Of a stretch of DNA of 64,000 nucleotides, positions 50,970 through 59,998 are shown one piece after another. Position 1 is the first letter of the stretch; the number at the start of each line of letters is the position of its first letter. The translations under genes were made by a program, and so were the position numbers. The notes under the pieces are model-generated. The model was not told the DNA's origin. It was given only the letters and a program-made list of their open reading frames with translations, and ran no database searches. Source of the DNA: Acidobacteriota bacterium (GTDB lineage Bacteria; Acidobacteriota; Vicinamibacteria; Vicinamibacterales; 2-12-FULL-66-21); NCBI GenBank assembly GCA_016184105.1, contig JACPDI010000022.1, positions 62,001 through 126,000 of the forward strand, read 5' to 3'.

Positions 50970-51288
50970 GCGTTCTGTAGTTCGGCGCCGACGACGGCTG
51001 GATGATACCAGGCAGGCTCGCCGCAGCCGCGTTTGACGGCAAAAGCTGTTCGCCGCCGGCGCCGGTGGGACTAGTGCGACGGAAAACGAATCCAATCGCG
51101 GTGCCAGTACGGCGGATACCCCCGAACTGCGCGGATTTGCGCCTAAAACGCGCCAAACGGCCGGTTCCGGCCGATCGGCAGACCACCTGTACGGGTACGA
51201 TTTGCCGGGATTCCGTCAGCCGCGCGGGTTTCCCGTCGCGGATTCACGTGTGACATCCCCTTTTCCGGCCGAAGAACCGGGTGCGGCC
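50970..51288. other. Gene-free region
   Basis: I see no supported gene here on either strand. Short frames on both strands lack family resemblance. The next gene is a tetraheme cytochrome, preceded by a sigma-54-like promoter at the right edge; the left edge is the minus-strand hairpin. A small RNA cannot be ruled out. Confidence 0.6.
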
Positions 51289-51304
51289 GGGAACTGGAAT
51301 TGCT
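51289..51304 (+). promoter_or_regulatory. Sigma-54-like promoter of the tetraheme gene
   Basis: The plus strand reads GGGAACTGGAATTGCT: GG and GC ten bases apart, a perfect TTGCT -12 box and partial -24 box. The predicted start near 51315 would leave a leader of about 38 bases containing AGAAGGAG. It is weaker than the sites at 32500 and 35588. Confidence 0.45.
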
Positions 51305-51352
51305 GCCTCAAGAGGGCAAACTCGTTTCCAACTTCAGAGAAGGAGCCAGTCG

Positions 51353-51811
51353 ATGTCGCTTGTGATGCTGCTCCTCGCATGGGTAGCCGGCGGCACGTTC
51401 GCGTGGTCGCAGTCGACCGTTCCTGCCGATACGTCCGGCTACGTGTGGGATACGGGCTGCAAGGACTGTCACGAGGAAATTTACGCCGCGTGGGCCAGGA
51501 CGAAACACAAGACCGCGCTCAATCGCCTGAGCCGCGGCGACCAGGAGAAAGAGTGCGCTGGCTGCCATTTCACCGGCAGCGCGAAGGCCGTTTCGGTCGA
51601 TGGGCGAACGGTGAACGGTGGCGTCCAGTGCGAAAGCTGCCACGGGCCAGGACGCGCGCACGCGGAGTCTGCCAAGGGAGGCGGCACGCCGGAGACGTAC
51701 ACCAAGGCGCCTGGCGAGAGCACCTGCACCGAGTGCCATAACAACAAGAGCCCGCACTACCGCGGGTTCTTCTACTCGGCCATGAAAGGGTTCGTGCACA
51801 AGGTCAAGTAA
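51353..51811 (+). CDS. Periplasmic tetraheme cytochrome c (cytochrome c554-like)
   Basis: A 152-residue exported protein: signal peptide (VMLLLAWVAGGTFAWSQ) and four CxxCH motifs: CKDCHEEIYAAW, CAGCH, CESCHGPGRAH and CTECHNNK. The first two motifs with EIYAAWARTKH resemble the cytochrome c554 family. It likely shuttles electrons in the periplasm; a partner is not clear. AGAAGGAG precedes the ATG. Confidence 0.85.
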   Translation: MSLVMLLLAWVAGGTFAWSQSTVPADTSGYVWDTGCKDCHEEIYAAWARTKHKTALNRLSRGDQEKECAGCHFTGSAKAVSVDGRTVNGGVQCESCHGPGRAHAESAKGGGTPETYTKAPGESTCTECHNNKSPHYRGFFYSAMKGFVHKVK

Positions 51812-52137
51812 CGGTGCTGGAATTTCGGCGCGGAGTGGGGAATTTCCCGCGCCGCAGACAGCGCTTTTCATCGCGGAACCCGTCGAATTCGCGGAAATTC
51901 TTGGAGATCCAGCGAGTTCTGCGTGTGCTGCGGTGAGGTCCCTGTCGGCACGCAAGCTGCAGTCTCGTTTTGGCAACACCTGCCCCGCAGCCGTCTCCTC
52001 CGTCGCTCTGCCGGCGAGGGTGCGGTCGCTGCGCTGGCGCGCATACCTGGCCCTACTAGGTCCGAGTCACACGCCACCAGCGAACCCCTGAGTTTTCAGA
52101 GCGTCACGGCTGCGGGCTTCTCTTGTCTCGGAACGTC
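51812..52137. other. Gap without gene
   Basis: No supported gene; an inverted GGCGCGG / CCGCGCC pair lies near the start and could help end the cytochrome transcript. No convincing promoter was found. Confidence 0.5.
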
Positions 52138-52770
52138 ATGCCACAACGCACGGTTTCATCAAGGCCGGCTCGCACCAACCCGATGTCGGCGATGGCGATT
52201 GTCAGCGGCATCGCCGGGGTGCTGTTCGGCGTGATCGCGGGCTACCTCATTGCCACGCAGCAGGGGATCGGCGCGGCCGCATCACCGGCCACCACCACCG
52301 CCACCACCGAGACGACGGCTGCGGCTTCGAGCAACGCGCCTGCAATTAACGAACAGGAACTGCAGACCTATCGGGACATCCTCAAGGCTGACCCGAAGAA
52401 CGTCCGCGCCGCAACGGAGCTTGGAAACCGGCTGTACGACGCCGGGCGATATTCCGAGGCGATCGTGTACTATCGCCAGGCGTTCGCGCTCGAGCCGAAA
52501 AACATCAATGTGAGCACCGATCTGGCCACGGCGATTTGGTACACCGGGGACGCGGATGGCGCCCTCGCGCAGTTCGAGAAGTCGCTGGCCATCGATCCGA
52601 CTCATGGCCAGACGCTCTTCAACATCGGGATCGTGAAGTCTCAGGGAAAAAATGACTACAAGGGGGCCTCTCTGGCCTGGGAGAAGCTCCTGGGGGCCAA
52701 TCCGGGTTATCCTGAAGGGGAGCGCGTCCGGCGGTTGCTGGACGAGGCCAAAGCCAAGGCTGGAGCATGA
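52138..52770 (+). CDS. TPR protein with N-terminal membrane anchor
   Basis: A 210-residue protein: a hydrophobic N-terminal segment (MAIVSGIAGVLFGVIAGYLI), a Thr/Ala-rich linker and about four tetratricopeptide repeats (DPKNVRAATELGNRLYDAGR, YSEAIVYYRQAFALEPKN, DADGALAQFEKSLAIDPTHG). It resembles NrfG/CcmI-type TPR domains used in cytochrome assembly, but that is only by analogy. It overlaps the next gene at ATGA. Confidence 0.75.
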   Translation: MPQRTVSSRPARTNPMSAMAIVSGIAGVLFGVIAGYLIATQQGIGAAASPATTTATTETTAAASSNAPAINEQELQTYRDILKADPKNVRAATELGNRLYDAGRYSEAIVYYRQAFALEPKNINVSTDLATAIWYTGDADGALAQFEKSLAIDPTHGQTLFNIGIVKSQGKNDYKGASLAWEKLLGANPGYPEGERVRRLLDEAKAKAGA

Positions 52771-53159: not shown

Positions 53160-53216
53160 CGCCACCTCTCTGGCTGCGTGCGCTCGCCGCACGCGTGTGT
53201 TCACAGGAGAGGTGTC

Positions 53217-54473
53217 ATGCGTTTACGTTTCACGTTCGCGATTCTTGCGCTCGCGTACTCGGCGCCTGCCTTCGCGCAGGCGGAGGCGCCGCGCACCACG
53301 CTCGCGCCCCTGATTGACGCGGCGATGGCGGCAAGCCCTGAGATTGCGGCCGCCCGGCTGCGCTACGAGGCGGCGCTCGAGCGTCCTGCACAGGAACGCA
53401 GTTTGCCGGACCCGATGGTCTCGGCGGGCTACGCCGCCAGCGGCAAGCCATTCCCCGGCGCCGGGCTCGGCAAGGAGCCGACGGCGAACATCGGCCTGAT
53501 GGTCACGCAGGAGATCCCCTACCCGGGGAAGCGGGGGCTGCGTGCGTCGATGGCGACAAGAGAGGCGGAGGCAGCGCGCGAGGAGATTGCCGCGGCGCGC
53601 CTGTCGGTGGTCACTCGCGTCAAGCAGGCGTACTACCGCCTCGCGTACACGTACGCCGCGGTCGACGTGCTCGCCCGCAACCGGGAGTTGCTCGAGACGC
53701 TGCTCAAAGTGAGCGAGGCCCGCTACGGCGTCGGCGGCGCCGCCCAGCAGGACGTGTTCAAGGGGCAGGCGGAACTGACGGTCGTGCACCTGCAGGAGCA
53801 GCGGCTGCTGCAGGAACGCCGCACGCGCGAAGCCGAGCTGAACGCGCTGATCAATCGCGAGCAGGGGATGCCGGTCGGACGCCCGGAGGATCTCCAGTTC
53901 GTGCCGTTCGACGTACCGGTCGGCGCCCTGCTCGCCGGCGCGCGCGCGCACGCCCCGATGTTGCTGCGCGATCGCAAGATGATCGAGCGCGCCGAGGTTG
54001 GCGTGGAGTCCGCGCGGCGTGACTACAAGCCCGACTTCGGCGTGTCCGGCGGCTACTACAACATGGGCTCCATGCCCGCGATGTACGAATTCCGGTTCGA
54101 CATCACCGTCCCGCTGCAGCGCGCGCGGCGCGCCGCCGCGGTGAAGGAACAGGCGGCCCTCCGGGATCAGGCCCGGCACGCCCTCGACGCCACCGCGCGG
54201 GGCATCGAGGCGCGCATCCAGGAGGACTACGAGATGGCGTCGACCTCATCGCGCCTCGCCCGCTTGTATCGCGACACGCTGCTGCCGCAGGTGCGGCTCG
54301 CCCTCGAATCGTCGATGGCGAGCTACCAGACGGGGGGCGTGGATTTTCTGTCGGTGCTCACGAACTTCTCCAGCGTCATCGACAACGAGATGCGGTACTT
54401 CGACGAGCTCGCGTCGTTTCACGTCGCGGCAAGCCGCCTCGAAGAGATGACGGGCGCGCCGATCGCGCACTGA
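53217..54473 (+). CDS. cusC: CusC-like outer-membrane efflux channel (TolC family)
   Basis: A 418-residue TolC-family protein: signal peptide (ILALAYSAPAFAQ), LAPLIDAAMAASPEIAAARL, a periplasmic coiled coil and the VTQEIPYPGKRGLRASMATR segment. It forms the outer-membrane duct for the CusBA pump encoded directly downstream. CAGGAGAGG precedes the start. Confidence 0.9.
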   Translation: MRLRFTFAILALAYSAPAFAQAEAPRTTLAPLIDAAMAASPEIAAARLRYEAALERPAQERSLPDPMVSAGYAASGKPFPGAGLGKEPTANIGLMVTQEIPYPGKRGLRASMATREAEAAREEIAAARLSVVTRVKQAYYRLAYTYAAVDVLARNRELLETLLKVSEARYGVGGAAQQDVFKGQAELTVVHLQEQRLLQERRTREAELNALINREQGMPVGRPEDLQFVPFDVPVGALLAGARAHAPMLLRDRKMIERAEVGVESARRDYKPDFGVSGGYYNMGSMPAMYEFRFDITVPLQRARRAAAVKEQAALRDQARHALDATARGIEARIQEDYEMASTSSRLARLYRDTLLPQVRLALESSMASYQTGGVDFLSVLTNFSSVIDNEMRYFDELASFHVAASRLEEMTGAPIAH

Positions 54474-54481
54474 GGTTTGCC

Positions 54482-55891
54482 ATGAAACTGCTCAAAGTCT
54501 TCCTCGTCCTTGCGCTGGTGGCGGCGGCATTCGCCGGTGGCTTCCTGGCGCGCGGCGGGTCCGGCACAACGCCCCCCGGCAGGAGCGCGGCGGCGGGCGC
54601 GCGGCGGATTCTCTACTACGTGGACCCGATGCACCCGGCCTACACGTCGGACAAGCCGGGCACGGCGCCCGACTGCGGCATGGCGCTCGAGCCCGTGTAC
54701 GCCGACGAGGTGGGTGCCGCCGCTCCCCCGTCCGCGGAGCGGAAGGTGCTCTTCTACCGCGACCCGAAGGTCCCGTCATACACGTCCCGCGCCCCGGGCC
54801 TCAATCCCGAAACGGGCAACACGCTCGAGCCGGTGTACGCGCCAGGCGCCGAAGCGGCGCCCCCCGGCACCGTCCACATCTCTCCGGAACGCCAGCAGCT
54901 GATCGGCGTGAAGTACGCCACGGTCACCGCGGAAGGCGGCGGGCGGACCATCCGGACCGTCGGGAAGGTCGCGTTCGACGAGAGGCGCATCGCCCACGTA
55001 CATCCCCGCTTCGAAGGGTGGGTCGAAAAGGTCTACGTGGACTTCACCGGCGAGGTCGTCCGCCGCGGCCAGACGATGCTGACCGTTTACAGCCCCGAGA
55101 TGCTGGCCTCGCAGCAGGAACTGCTGCTCGCGCGCAAGGCGCGCGACCTGATGAGCGCCAATCCCCTTCCGAGCGCGTCCACGCACGGCGATTCGCTGTT
55201 CGCCGCGGCGAAGCAACGGCTGCAGCTCTGGGGCCTGACCGACGCGCAGATCGAACAGGTGCTCCGCACCGGCGAGCCGATCCGCAGCATCGCGCTGCCG
55301 GCGCCGGCGGGCGGCTTCGTCACCACGCGGAATGCCTTTCCGAACCAGAAGGTGACGCCCGACAGCGACCTGTACACCATCGCGGACCTGAGCCGCGTCT
55401 GGATCGTCGCCGACCTCTTCGAGTCGGACGCCGCGTCTGTCCGCGTCGGCGAGACCGCGCGCATCCTCGTCCCCTACTCGGATGCGCCCCCGCTCTCGGC
55501 GAAGGTGAGCTACATCCAGCCCGAAGTGGATCCCGCGACGCGGACGATCAAGGTGCGCCTCGACGTCGGCAACCCCGGCACGCGCCTGAAGCCGGAGATG
55601 TTCGTCAACGCCGAGTTTACCGTCCGCGGCACGCCGCGGCTGACGGTGCCGGCCGACGCCGTGCTGGACACCGGCGAGCGCCAGACCGTGTTCATCGATC
55701 GCGGCAACGGTTACCTCGAGCCGCGGGCCGTGAAGATCGGCGAGCGGCTGGGCGATCGCATCGCGATCGACAGTGGTCTCGCCGCCGGCGAGCGCATCGT
55801 CGCCTCCGGCGCGTTCCTCGTGGACTCGGAGAGCCAGCTGCGCGCCGCGGTCAGCGCGATGGCCGCGCCGAAGGGGCACGAGCATGATTGA
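54482..55891 (+). CDS. cusB: CusB-like periplasmic adaptor with heavy-metal-binding domains
   Basis: A 469-residue adaptor. After an N-terminal helix it has a heavy-metal-binding domain (YYVDPMHPAYTSDKPG, then DCGMALEPVY) and a second copy (FYRDPKVPSYTSRAPG, then GNTLEPVY) in which the Cys and Met positions are lost. The barrel-sandwich and beta-barrel parts follow (VHPRFEGWVEKVYVDFTGEV). It binds Cu(I)/Ag(I) and joins pump to channel. It overlaps cusA by eight bases. Confidence 0.9.
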   Translation: MKLLKVFLVLALVAAAFAGGFLARGGSGTTPPGRSAAAGARRILYYVDPMHPAYTSDKPGTAPDCGMALEPVYADEVGAAAPPSAERKVLFYRDPKVPSYTSRAPGLNPETGNTLEPVYAPGAEAAPPGTVHISPERQQLIGVKYATVTAEGGGRTIRTVGKVAFDERRIAHVHPRFEGWVEKVYVDFTGEVVRRGQTMLTVYSPEMLASQQELLLARKARDLMSANPLPSASTHGDSLFAAAKQRLQLWGLTDAQIEQVLRTGEPIRSIALPAPAGGFVTTRNAFPNQKVTPDSDLYTIADLSRVWIVADLFESDAASVRVGETARILVPYSDAPPLSAKVSYIQPEVDPATRTIKVRLDVGNPGTRLKPEMFVNAEFTVRGTPRLTVPADAVLDTGERQTVFIDRGNGYLEPRAVKIGERLGDRIAIDSGLAAGERIVASGAFLVDSESQLRAAVSAMAAPKGHEHD

Positions 55892-58800
55892 CCGCCTCAT
55901 CGAGTTCTCGGCGCGCAACCGGTTCCTCGTCTTCCTGTTCGTCGCGAGCGCCGTTGCCGCGGGGGCGTGGTCGATGAAGACGGTGCCGCTCGATGCCATC
56001 CCTGACTTGAGCGACACGCAGGTCATCATCTACTCGCGCTGGGACCGCAGCCCCGACATCGTCGAGGACCAGGTCACCTACCCGCTGGTCACGGCGATGC
56101 TCGGCGCGCCCAGGGTGAAAGACGTCCGCGGGTTCTCCGACTTCGGCTTTTCGTACGTCTACGTCATCTTCGAAGAGGGGACGGACATCTACTGGGCGCG
56201 GTCGCGCACGATGGAGTACCTGTCGGGCGTGCTCCCGCGGCTGCCGCAGGGAGTGAGGACCGAGCTCGGGCCCGACGCGTCCGGCGTCGGCTGGGTGTTC
56301 CAGTACGCGCTGGTTGACGAGACGCGTACGCACAGCCTGGACGAGCTGCGTTCGTACCAGGACTGGTATCTCCGCTATTACCTCAAGTCCGTGCCCGGCG
56401 TGGCGGAGGTCGCGCCGATTGGCGGCTTCGTCCGCCAGTACCAGGTGCAGGTCGACCCCAACCGCCTGCGAACGTTCAACATCCCGGTCTCGAAGGTCAT
56501 CGAGGCGGTCCGCGCGGGCAACAACGACGTGGGCGGCCGCCTCGTGGAGTTCTCCGGCGCCGAGTACATGGTGCGCGGCCGCGGCTATGCGAAATCCGCG
56601 GACGACATCGGCAACACCGTGCTGCTGTCGACCGAAGCGGGCGTGCCGGTCCGCGTCCGGGACGTCGGCACGGTGACGCTGGGCCCGGATCTCCGCCGCG
56701 GGGTCGCCGACCTCGACGGCACCGGCGATGTCGTCGCCGGCATCGTCGTGATGCGCCAGGGAGAGAACGCGCTGGATGTCATCGAGCGCGTCAAGGCGAA
56801 GCTGAAGGAGGTCGAGCCCTCGTTGCCGAAAGGGGTCCGGATCGTCACCGCGTACGACCGTTCCGACCTGATCCTGCGCTCGATCGACAACCTGAAGGAC
56901 ACGCTCCTCGAAGAGCTCGTCATCGTCGCGATCGTCATCCTGATCTTCCTCTGGCATATTCCGAGCGCGGTCATTCCGATCATCACCATTCCCGTCGCGG
57001 TGATCATCTCGTTCATCCCGATGCGGCTGTTCGGCATCTCCTCGAACATCATGTCGCTCGGCGGCATCGCCATCGCCGTCGGCGCGATGGTGGACGCCGC
57101 GATCGTCGTCGTCGAGCAGACGCACAAGAAGCTCGAGGAGTGGGAGCGCACCGGCCGGCGAGAGGATTACCACCGCGTCATCGTGAACGCCGTGAAGGAA
57201 GTCGGCGGGCCGAGCTTCTTCGCGCTCCTGGTGATCGCCGTCTCGTTTCTCCCCGTCCTCACCCTCGAGGCGCAGGAAGGGCGGCTGTTCAAGCCGCTCG
57301 CCTACACGAAGACCTTCTCGATGATCGTCGCGGCGGTACTCGCCATCACGCTCGACCCGGCCATGCGCCTGCTCTTCACGCACATGAAGCAGTACTCCTT
57401 CCGGCCGCGATGGCTCGCGCGCGCGGTGAACGCGGTGCTCGTCGGAACGATCCACTCCGAGGAGACGCACCCGATCAGCCGGATCCTGATCAGGGTTTAC
57501 GAGCCGATCTGCGCGTGGTGCCTCCGCTGGAAGTGGGCCGTCATCGGCGGCGCGGTCGCACTCGTCATCGCAACCATCCCGGTCTACCAGCGCCTCGGCT
57601 CGGAGTTCATGCCGCCGCTCGACGAAGGGTCGCTGCTCTACATGCCCTCAACGCTGCCGGGCATTTCCGTCACCGAGGCGCAGCGGCTGCTGCAGGTGCA
57701 GGACCGCATCATCAAGCAGTTCCCTGAAGTGGAGCGCGTGCTCGGCAAGGCGGGGCGCGCGGAGACGTCCACCGATCCGGCGCCGCTCTCGATGATGGAG
57801 ACCGTCATCCTGCTCAAGCCGCACGACCAGTGGCGCCACGTGGACACGTGGTACTCCGACTGGGCGCCGAACTGGCTGAAGCCGGTGCTGCGGCGGGTGA
57901 CGAGCGACCGCCTCTCGACCGAACAGCTCGTCGCCGAGATGAACGCGGCGCTCAAGCTGCCGGGCGTCACCAACGCCTGGACGATGCCGATCAAGGCGCG
58001 CACCGACATGCTGACCACCGGCGTCCGCACGCCGGTGGGCATCAAAATCTACGGCGCCGACATCAAGGAGATCGAGCGCCTCGGCACGGAGATCGAGTCC
58101 GTTCTCCCGTCGGTGCCCGGCACGCGGAGCGTCTTCGCGGAACGGACCTCCGGCGGCTACTTCCTCGACCTCGTCTGGAAGCGGGACGAGCTGGCCCGCT
58201 ACGGCCTGTCCATCGACGATGCGCAGATGGTCGTGATGTCGGCGATCGGCGGGGACACCGTCACGACGACGGTCGAAGGGCGCGAGCGTTACGCGGTCAA
58301 CGTCCGCTACTTCCGCGATTACCGCAGCGACGTGGACAGCGTCCGGCGGGTGGTTGTGCCCGCGATGGACGGCCGGATGCAGGTGCCCGTCAGCCAGCTC
58401 GCCGAGGTCCGGATCGTCAGCGGCCCGTCGATGCTGCGCAACGAGAACGGCATGCTGAACGGGTACGTCTACGTCGACGTCGCCGGCCGGGACATCGGCG
58501 GCTACGTCGCCGACGCCAAGGAGGCGGTGGCCTCGCGCGTGGCGCTGCCCGTCGGCTACTCGCTCGTCTGGAGCGGCCAGTACGAGGCGATGGAGCGCGT
58601 CAGGCAGCGGCTGACGATCATCGTCCCGCTGACGCTGTTCCTCGTCGTCCTGCTGCTCTACATGAACACGAAGTCGTGGGCGAAGACGTCCATCATCCTG
58701 TTCGCTGTGCCGTTCTCGGCGATCGGCGCGATCTGGCTGCTGTATGCGCTCGGCTACAACATGAGCATCGGGGTCTGGGTCGGGCTGATTGCGCTGCTCG

Positions 58801-59156
58801 GCGTGGACGCGGAGACCGGCGTGTTCATGCTGCTGTATCTCGATCTCGCGTACGAAGACGCGCGCCGCGACGGGCGGATGCGCTCGCTCCGCGATCTGCA
58901 GGCGGCCATCCTGCACGGCGCGGTGAAGCGCATCCGGCCGAAGTTCATGACGGTCGCGGTGATGTTCATGGGACTCGTGCCCATCATGTGGTCCGTCGGC
59001 GCCGGGGCCGACGTCATGAAACGGATTGCCGCGCCGATGGTGGGCGGCATTTTCACCTCGTTCGTCCTGGAATTGATGGTCTACCCGGCCGTGTACGAGC
59101 TGTGGAAGTGGCACGCGGAAGTCAAACCCTCACTCAAGGAGCAACTCGCGTCATGA
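55884..59156 (+). CDS. cusA: CusA-like Cu(I)/Ag(I) efflux RND pump
   Basis: A 1090-residue heavy-metal RND pump: IEFSARNRFLVFLFVASAVA start, DAIPDLSDTQVIIYSRW, MPPLDEGSLLYMPSTLPGIS and GGDTVTTTVEGRERYAVNVR are CusA-type hallmarks, with 12 membrane helices and two large periplasmic loops. It exports Cu(I) or Ag(I) using the proton gradient. It overlaps the next small gene at ATGA, so that gene is coupled. Confidence 0.95.
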   Translation: MIDRLIEFSARNRFLVFLFVASAVAAGAWSMKTVPLDAIPDLSDTQVIIYSRWDRSPDIVEDQVTYPLVTAMLGAPRVKDVRGFSDFGFSYVYVIFEEGTDIYWARSRTMEYLSGVLPRLPQGVRTELGPDASGVGWVFQYALVDETRTHSLDELRSYQDWYLRYYLKSVPGVAEVAPIGGFVRQYQVQVDPNRLRTFNIPVSKVIEAVRAGNNDVGGRLVEFSGAEYMVRGRGYAKSADDIGNTVLLSTEAGVPVRVRDVGTVTLGPDLRRGVADLDGTGDVVAGIVVMRQGENALDVIERVKAKLKEVEPSLPKGVRIVTAYDRSDLILRSIDNLKDTLLEELVIVAIVILIFLWHIPSAVIPIITIPVAVIISFIPMRLFGISSNIMSLGGIAIAVGAMVDAAIVVVEQTHKKLEEWERTGRREDYHRVIVNAVKEVGGPSFFALLVIAVSFLPVLTLEAQEGRLFKPLAYTKTFSMIVAAVLAITLDPAMRLLFTHMKQYSFRPRWLARAVNAVLVGTIHSEETHPISRILIRVYEPICAWCLRWKWAVIGGAVALVIATIPVYQRLGSEFMPPLDEGSLLYMPSTLPGISVTEAQRLLQVQDRIIKQFPEVERVLGKAGRAETSTDPAPLSMMETVILLKPHDQWRHVDTWYSDWAPNWLKPVLRRVTSDRLSTEQLVAEMNAALKLPGVTNAWTMPIKARTDMLTTGVRTPVGIKIYGADIKEIERLGTEIESVLPSVPGTRSVFAERTSGGYFLDLVWKRDELARYGLSIDDAQMVVMSAIGGDTVTTTVEGRERYAVNVRYFRDYRSDVDSVRRVVVPAMDGRMQVPVSQLAEVRIVSGPSMLRNENGMLNGYVYVDVAGRDIGGYVADAKEAVASRVALPVGYSLVWSGQYEAMERVRQRLTIIVPLTLFLVVLLLYMNTKSWAKTSIILFAVPFSAIGAIWLLYALGYNMSIGVWVGLIALLGVDAETGVFMLLYLDLAYEDARRDGRMRSLRDLQAAILHGAVKRIRPKFMTVAVMFMGLVPIMWSVGAGADVMKRIAAPMVGGIFTSFVLELMVYPAVYELWKWHAEVKPSLKEQLAS

Positions 59157-59497
59157 AGATTCCTGCATTCGTCCTCTCGGCTCTCCTGCTCTCGGCTCTC
59201 CTGCTCGCGGCGCCGATCGCCGCCTCGGAGTCCCGCACGTTCACCGGTGTGATTGGCGACTCGATGTGCGTCCGCGATCACGCCCCTATGAAGATCGCAC
59301 CCGACGACAAGTGCGTCCGCGACTGCGTCAGCCACAGCAAGGACGTGAAGTACATCCTGTTGACGCAGGACAAGCACTACGTGCTCAGCGATCAGGCGGC
59401 GCCCGAACGACTCGCCGGCCGGAAGGTGGTCGTCAAGGGCGTGCTGTACGAAAAGACCGGTATCATCAAGGTGGAGTCGATCGAGGCTGCCAAGTAG
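59153..59497 (+). CDS. Small secreted metal-handling protein
   Basis: A 114-residue protein: a signal peptide with a 15-bp tandem duplication (59174-59203, encoding LSALL twice), then GVIGDSMCVRDHAPM, CVRDC and VKYILLTQDKHYVLSDQ. It resembles small secreted Cys/Met/His proteins common in Acidobacteria-type genomes. Its place between cusA and the DUF411 gene suggests periplasmic copper binding; this is inference. Confidence 0.6.
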   Translation: MKIPAFVLSALLLSALLLAAPIAASESRTFTGVIGDSMCVRDHAPMKIAPDDKCVRDCVSHSKDVKYILLTQDKHYVLSDQAAPERLAGRKVVVKGVLYEKTGIIKVESIEAAK

Positions 59498-59506
59498 GGG
59501 GGAATC

Positions 59507-59998
59507 GTGAAGAGAGTGACGACGTGTATGGCCGTGGTGGCGCTGCTCGCGGGCCCCGCGGCGGCGCCGGTCGCAGCGGCGCAACAGAAGAGCGTAGCGC
59601 CCGCGACCCAGGTGCGCGTGTTCGAGGGCCCGGGTTGACCGTGCTGCGGCCGGTGGGTGAAGCACCTGCGGGCTGCCGGGTTCTCGGTCGAGACCCAGAT
59701 GGTGAATGACCTCGACGCCGTTCCGGAACGCCGGCGCGTGCCGCAGTCCCTGCGATCGTGCCATACGGCGGTGATCGGCGGTTACCTCGTCGAGGGACAC
59801 ATCCCGGCGGCGGCCGTGCGACGGCTGCTCCGCGAGCGTCCGACGATCGCCGGCATCGCGGTGCCGGGCATGCCCGCCGGATCGCCTGGGATGGAGTCCG
59901 CCACGCCGGAGGCATACGAGGTGATCGCGTTCGACAAGGCCGGCAAGACGTACGTCTTCGCGAAGGTCGCCGCCGACGGAACCGTCAGCCGGCGATGA
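59507..59998 (+). CDS. DUF411/CopG-family copper protein; candidate selenoprotein
   Basis: The reading frame begins at GTG 59507 (AGGGGGGA upstream) with a signal peptide and runs, with one TGA (59636-59638), to 59998. The sequence reads VRVFEGPG-TGA-PCCGRWVKHLRAAGF, then SCHTAVIGGYLVEGHIPAAA and AVPGMPAGSPGME, which is a full DUF411 protein. DUF411 proteins such as CopG carry CxCC near the start and bind a multicopper cluster; here TGA replaces the first Cys, so a UxCC motif with Sec44 would be made. Without Sec insertion the product stops at 43 residues. A TGC-to-TGA mutation or sequencing error is the main alternative. Confidence 0.75.
59636..59673 (+). promoter_or_regulatory. Candidate SECIS-like hairpin after the UGA
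   Basis: After the TGA, GGTG (59652-59655) and CACC (59663-59666) form a stem around the loop GGTGAAG, with two more pairs beyond a C-T mismatch. The loop starts with G and lies 17 bases after the UGA, in the range of bacterial SECIS elements. The stem is short, so folding support is modest. Confidence 0.4.

Follow-up and report, generated by a model that had tools for sequence, protein, structure and literature searches.

Within the window (the whole 64-kb stretch of DNA analysed here), the gene that follows a set of Cus-type efflux genes in all likelihood encodes a selenium-containing version of CopG, a periplasmic copper protein; selenocysteine at residue 44 (Sec44) would lie in its copper motif, and the protein would most likely serve the adjoining CusCBA pump. 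Judged from its sequence and that of its relatives, the gene very probably reads an internal TGA as selenocysteine.

The reading frame starts with the GTG at 59507, immediately 3' of a likely Shine–Dalgarno sequence (AGGGGGGA), ends with the TGA at 59996-59998 and contains a single internal stop, the TGA at 59636-59638 (Table 1). An earlier sequence-only reading of this DNA had placed a lone in-frame TGA at the first cysteine of a CxCC motif and had the domain running on in frame beyond it. Both statements hold: alignment to the solved CopG structure 6wis (E 4e-31) sets the first Cys of its CGCC opposite the TGA, and DUF411 (PF04214) is intact in the read-through protein (residues 82-129, E 2.9e-27, 94.6 bits compared to a cut-off of 27). 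On inspection the N terminus resembles a signal peptide, and the protein is predicted to be periplasmic, as is likely from its sequence. The residue directly after the site is Pro (UPCC), which the window gene alone has among 185 homologues. Downstream of the TGA there is also an open frame with a GTG start at 59657.

The same reading had the gene closing a Cus efflux operon, and it does come last, after the genes for the outer-membrane efflux protein (OEP), CusB, CusA and a DUF5818 protein. The DUF5818 gene overlaps the end of cusA by 4 bases, and the CopG gene begins 9 bases after it. The DUF5818 protein has two Cys-containing stretches, SMCVRDHAP and KCVRDCVSH, and no copy of it was found near other DUF411 genes in the flanks that we fetched. 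Upstream of the operon lie genes for a multihaem cytochrome c554/c7-like protein and a TPR protein (51281-51811, 52123-52770).

Table 1 Features of the putative selenoprotein CopG gene and of the Cus operon, in window coordinates
Feature	Position	Strand	Evidence
CusC-like outer-membrane efflux protein (OEP)	53178-54473	+	PF02321, E 2.3e-42
CusB-like adaptor with heavy-metal-binding domain (HMBD)	54482-55891	+	PF16576, E 1.8e-73; PF19335
CusA-like RND pump	55881-59156	+	PF00873, E 4.3e-212
Small exported DUF5818 protein	59153-59497	+	PF19135, 27.2 compared to 27 bits, just over cut-off
Putative Sec-containing CopG/DUF411 gene	59507-59998	+	163 aa, GTG start, read-through translation, DUF411, CopG fold
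TGA codon, predicted Sec44, at the first Cys of CxCC (UPCC here)	59636-59638	+	6wis alignment, homologues
Cys46 and Cys47, remaining CC of CxCC	59642-59647	+	Invariant in 36-protein alignment
SECIS-like hairpin, 13 pairs and one mismatch	59646-59676	+	Stem-length measure, synonymous recoding p = 0.025
Met122 and Met129, GMPxGSPGM motif, probable Met copper ligands	59870-59893	+	Invariant in 36-protein alignment, CopG analogy

The codon at the site was then compared across relatives. We took 80 relatives from genome contigs, found others in 43 genomes out of 396 for the phylum and 91 out of 162 for the order, and retrieved the remaining homologues by coordinate, which gave 185 sequences with the site. 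The alternation that the sequence-only reading had proposed to look for is there: the codon is TGA in 55 homologues, TGC in 111 and TGT in 19. Across 21,090 in-frame codons (from 8 before to 105 after the site in each of the 185), there are 55 internal stops, every one of them TGA and every one at the site codon, a pattern that exceeds chance. The TGA carriers belong to at least five phyla (Acidobacteria, Deltaproteobacteria/Myxococcota, Desulfuromonadales, Anaerolineae and Burkholderiales).

On a tree of 125 alignment columns, in which many forks, the place of the window gene included, are unresolved, 13 changes of the Sec label are needed, compared to 46 when labels are shuffled, and at least seven Cys/Sec switches are required by branches with good support. 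Recent switches are seen in sister pairs such as L152 (Sec) and L181 (Cys). Close relatives within the order that differ in this way are L147/L179, L152/L181 and L165/L189; in each the Sec form has the longer hairpin, and they provide natural pairs for experiments. In the window gene's own family, all five other homologues fetched have the Cys form. Among 395 genomes searched in the Desulfuromonas phylum there was one true relative, and of 3,452 plasmid records 12 were listed, each with less than 60% identity.

All four of selA, selB, selC and selD, whose presence had been named as a check on the proposal, are found in the source genome: a tRNA-Sec with anticodon TCA, SelB (356 bits, with the first residues alone missing, at a contig end), SelA and SelD. 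The selD gene has an in-frame TGA of its own at the usual Sec position (CAGU-ASK), so that this genome very likely makes use of TGA recoding. In a batch of 80 genomes, SelB turned up in 31 of 36 with the Sec form and in 29 of 44 with the Cys form (Fisher p 0.043); its co-occurrence discriminates only weakly, since SelB is present in most of the order. A tRNA-Sec is present in three Sec-form genomes of the batch where SelB was not found (G455, G492 and G494), and also in G522, the source of locus L076. Neither a SelB match nor a clear tRNA-Sec was found in the TGA-form drafts G456, G487 and G520 (the genome of L043), nor a clear tRNA-Sec in the draft G504; these absences are weak evidence because the genomes are drafts, and the first three may be incomplete assemblies or may hold relics of a Sec use since lost.

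The hairpin downstream of the site lies 8-38 bases 3' of the TGA and has the apex AAG at 59660-59662. Its alternative register, with the 7-base loop GGTGAAG, corresponds to the G-starting loop that had been noticed 17 bases on, and folding the region after the TGA, a further check that had been suggested, gives the full 13-pair hairpin, longer than expected from recoding. The presence of a hairpin alone proves little, as the W-V-x-H-L codons favour one in any member: codons +5 to +10 after the site in all DUF411 genes encode W-V/I-x-H-L (TGG GTN NNN CAY CTN), so that Cys genes, too, form a weak hairpin. This built-in hairpin may ease Cys-to-Sec switches in the DUF411 family. General folding energy, set against that of synonymous shuffles, is a weak discriminator of Sec and Cys genes (p 0.22 within the phylum, 0.023 for all genes together), because the motif itself encodes complementary bases. 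For that reason we used a stem-specific measure with a synonymous control, in which the longest stem close to the expected apex is compared with those obtained when the same peptide is recoded synonymously.

By this measure, in which kinship is ignored, Sec genes have longer stems than their recodings (7.93 compared to 6.58 bp, Wilcoxon p 1.4e-7), whereas Cys genes do not differ from theirs (6.02 compared to 6.19 bp, p 0.12). The window gene has one of the longest hairpins (stem 13 observed compared to 6.4 recoded, p 0.025), whereas two Cys relatives in the same family have stems of 5 and 3 pairs, and in the sister pairs examined the longer stem always belongs to the Sec member. Loops start with GGUC in one Sec clade, which we take to recall the E. 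coli fdhF loop, and another clade uses a different register. Rfam gave no match to the hairpin or to any other part of the window. We regard the hairpin as a candidate bSECIS that would guide SelB.

Modelled by AlphaFold with Cys substituted for Sec (pLDDT 90), the protein has a thioredoxin/glutaredoxin-like fold that Foldseek matches to 6wis (TM 0.89, E 4.5e-14; VIA Z 20.5). The CC pair, both Met residues, His86 and His98 are invariant in an alignment of 36 proteins, the window protein included. CopG is a periplasmic protein with a tetranuclear copper cluster that contributes to anoxic copper resistance, and that of P. aeruginosa, with its tetranuclear cluster, has copper oxidoreductase activity (PMC7558416, PMC8456105). 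Since CopG binds copper through CxCC and two Met (PMC7558416) and the other ligands are kept here, a Sec in the first CxCC position probably contacts copper, and by analogy selenium would sit on copper in the window protein.

As a mechanism, we propose that SelB would bring Sec-tRNA(Sec) to the ribosome at the UGA (59636-59638), guided by the downstream hairpin, and that Sec44 would stand in for the first Cys of CxCC. Once exported, the thioredoxin-like protein would most likely bind copper through Sec44, Cys46, Cys47, Met122 and Met129, and might buffer Cu(I)/Cu(II), or convert one into the other, for the CusCBA pump next to it.

The window is a rare place where the Sec form belongs to a copper-efflux operon. 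Cus or P-type ATPase genes occur in the fetched flanks of 2 of 55 Sec genes compared to 34 of 130 Cys genes (Fisher p 1.9e-4), a comparison of short flanks between sets that differ in taxonomy; within the phylum, the same contrast is 1 of 47 compared to 6 of 58 (p 0.13). The two Sec genes beside copper efflux are the window gene and that of locus L053, a Sec-form CopG from a Burkholderiales MAG with an HMBD-containing heavy-metal P-type ATPase nearby (L053:3397-4350). Sec genes otherwise mostly stand alone with mixed neighbours and, as 2 of 55 adjoin copper efflux genes, the Sec form may not be paired with copper in every case.

Could the family be a true selenoprotein family and the window gene nonetheless a dead one, whose TGA stems from a recent nonsense change to a Cys-form gene or from faulty assembly? 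We consider this quite improbable. Only 1 of the 42 possible single-base nonsense changes hits the site codon, every invariant residue is kept in the downstream domain, the hairpin has 13 bp against the 5 and 3 bp of the two same-family Cys relatives, and the genome holds the complete Sec machinery. On the other side, TGC becomes TGA by one base change, the other fetched members of the gene's own family are Cys forms and the Pro after the site is unique; some doubt about the window gene persists because of this Pro and because there is no congener for comparison. The chance is slighter still, and very small, that the TGA is a true stop between two proteins, a leader and a product restarted at GTG 59657: the open frame is there, but the restarted product would lose both the signal peptide and the CxCC motif, and the alternation with Cys at this exact codon, like the Sec machinery in most carriers, would be left unexplained.

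A different alternative accepts a real Sec protein and gives it mainly thiol/selenol redox work, or mercury or silver handling, without a copper cluster. The thioredoxin/glutaredoxin-like fold, the mostly stand-alone Sec genes with their mixed neighbours and the view that selenoproteins are mostly redox proteins (PMC13188914) lend it appreciable weight, but the whole CxCC and both Met are retained, the window gene ends a Cus operon, the L053 gene lies near a heavy-metal P-type ATPase and CopG relatives bind copper (PMC7558416), and we hold it to be unlikely. A selenoprotein CopG that works on copper is the reading we prefer for the window gene. Its extension to the family, namely a widespread and uncatalogued selenoprotein family in which Sec is a ligand of a periplasmic multinuclear copper cluster (a natural Cu-Se centre), with many gains or Cys reversions and in this genome serving Cus efflux, has in our view even chances of being right.

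A 2026 census of 119 prokaryotic selenoprotein families lists no DUF411 or CopG in its Table 1 (PMC13188914), and no model of NCBIfam release 20 matches the window protein above cut-off. We found no literature pairing DUF411 or COG3019 with selenoproteins in a search outside subscription papers, preprints and supplements, and because it left these out an unlisted mention of Sec-CopG may exist. Sec-CopG is thus very probably a recurrent selenoprotein family, in at least five bacterial phyla, that is absent from the census. If so, a recurrent family from soil-type bacteria, mainly Acidobacteria in our sample, would be added to a catalogue of about 119, and a natural series of Cys/Sec pairs on one copper site would give access to the effect of selenium on copper redox chemistry. 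Standard annotation would truncate such genes at the TGA or drop the metal motif, and copper-resistance genes may therefore be misread in many genomes.

Ties between selenoproteins and copper handling are already on record, as the census lists an SO_0444 family Cu/Zn efflux transporter (UxC) and CopZ-like 2Fe-2S selenoproteins (GxUC, CU) (PMC13188914). These share the tie to copper with the window protein and belong to different families. Replacement of a Cys metal ligand by Sec, as we propose here, is found in [NiFeSe] hydrogenase and Sec formate dehydrogenase, which are large enzymes with a fold unrelated to that of the window protein. Their metals are Ni, or Mo/W, rather than copper (PMC13188914). 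The closest comparison is with CopG/CutG itself (DUF411, PF04214; 6wis, 6wje), with which the window protein shares sequence (E 4e-31), fold (TM 0.89), the CC pair, both Met positions and a place by cusCBA; where CopG/CutG has Cys followed by Gly, the window protein would have Sec, followed by Pro.
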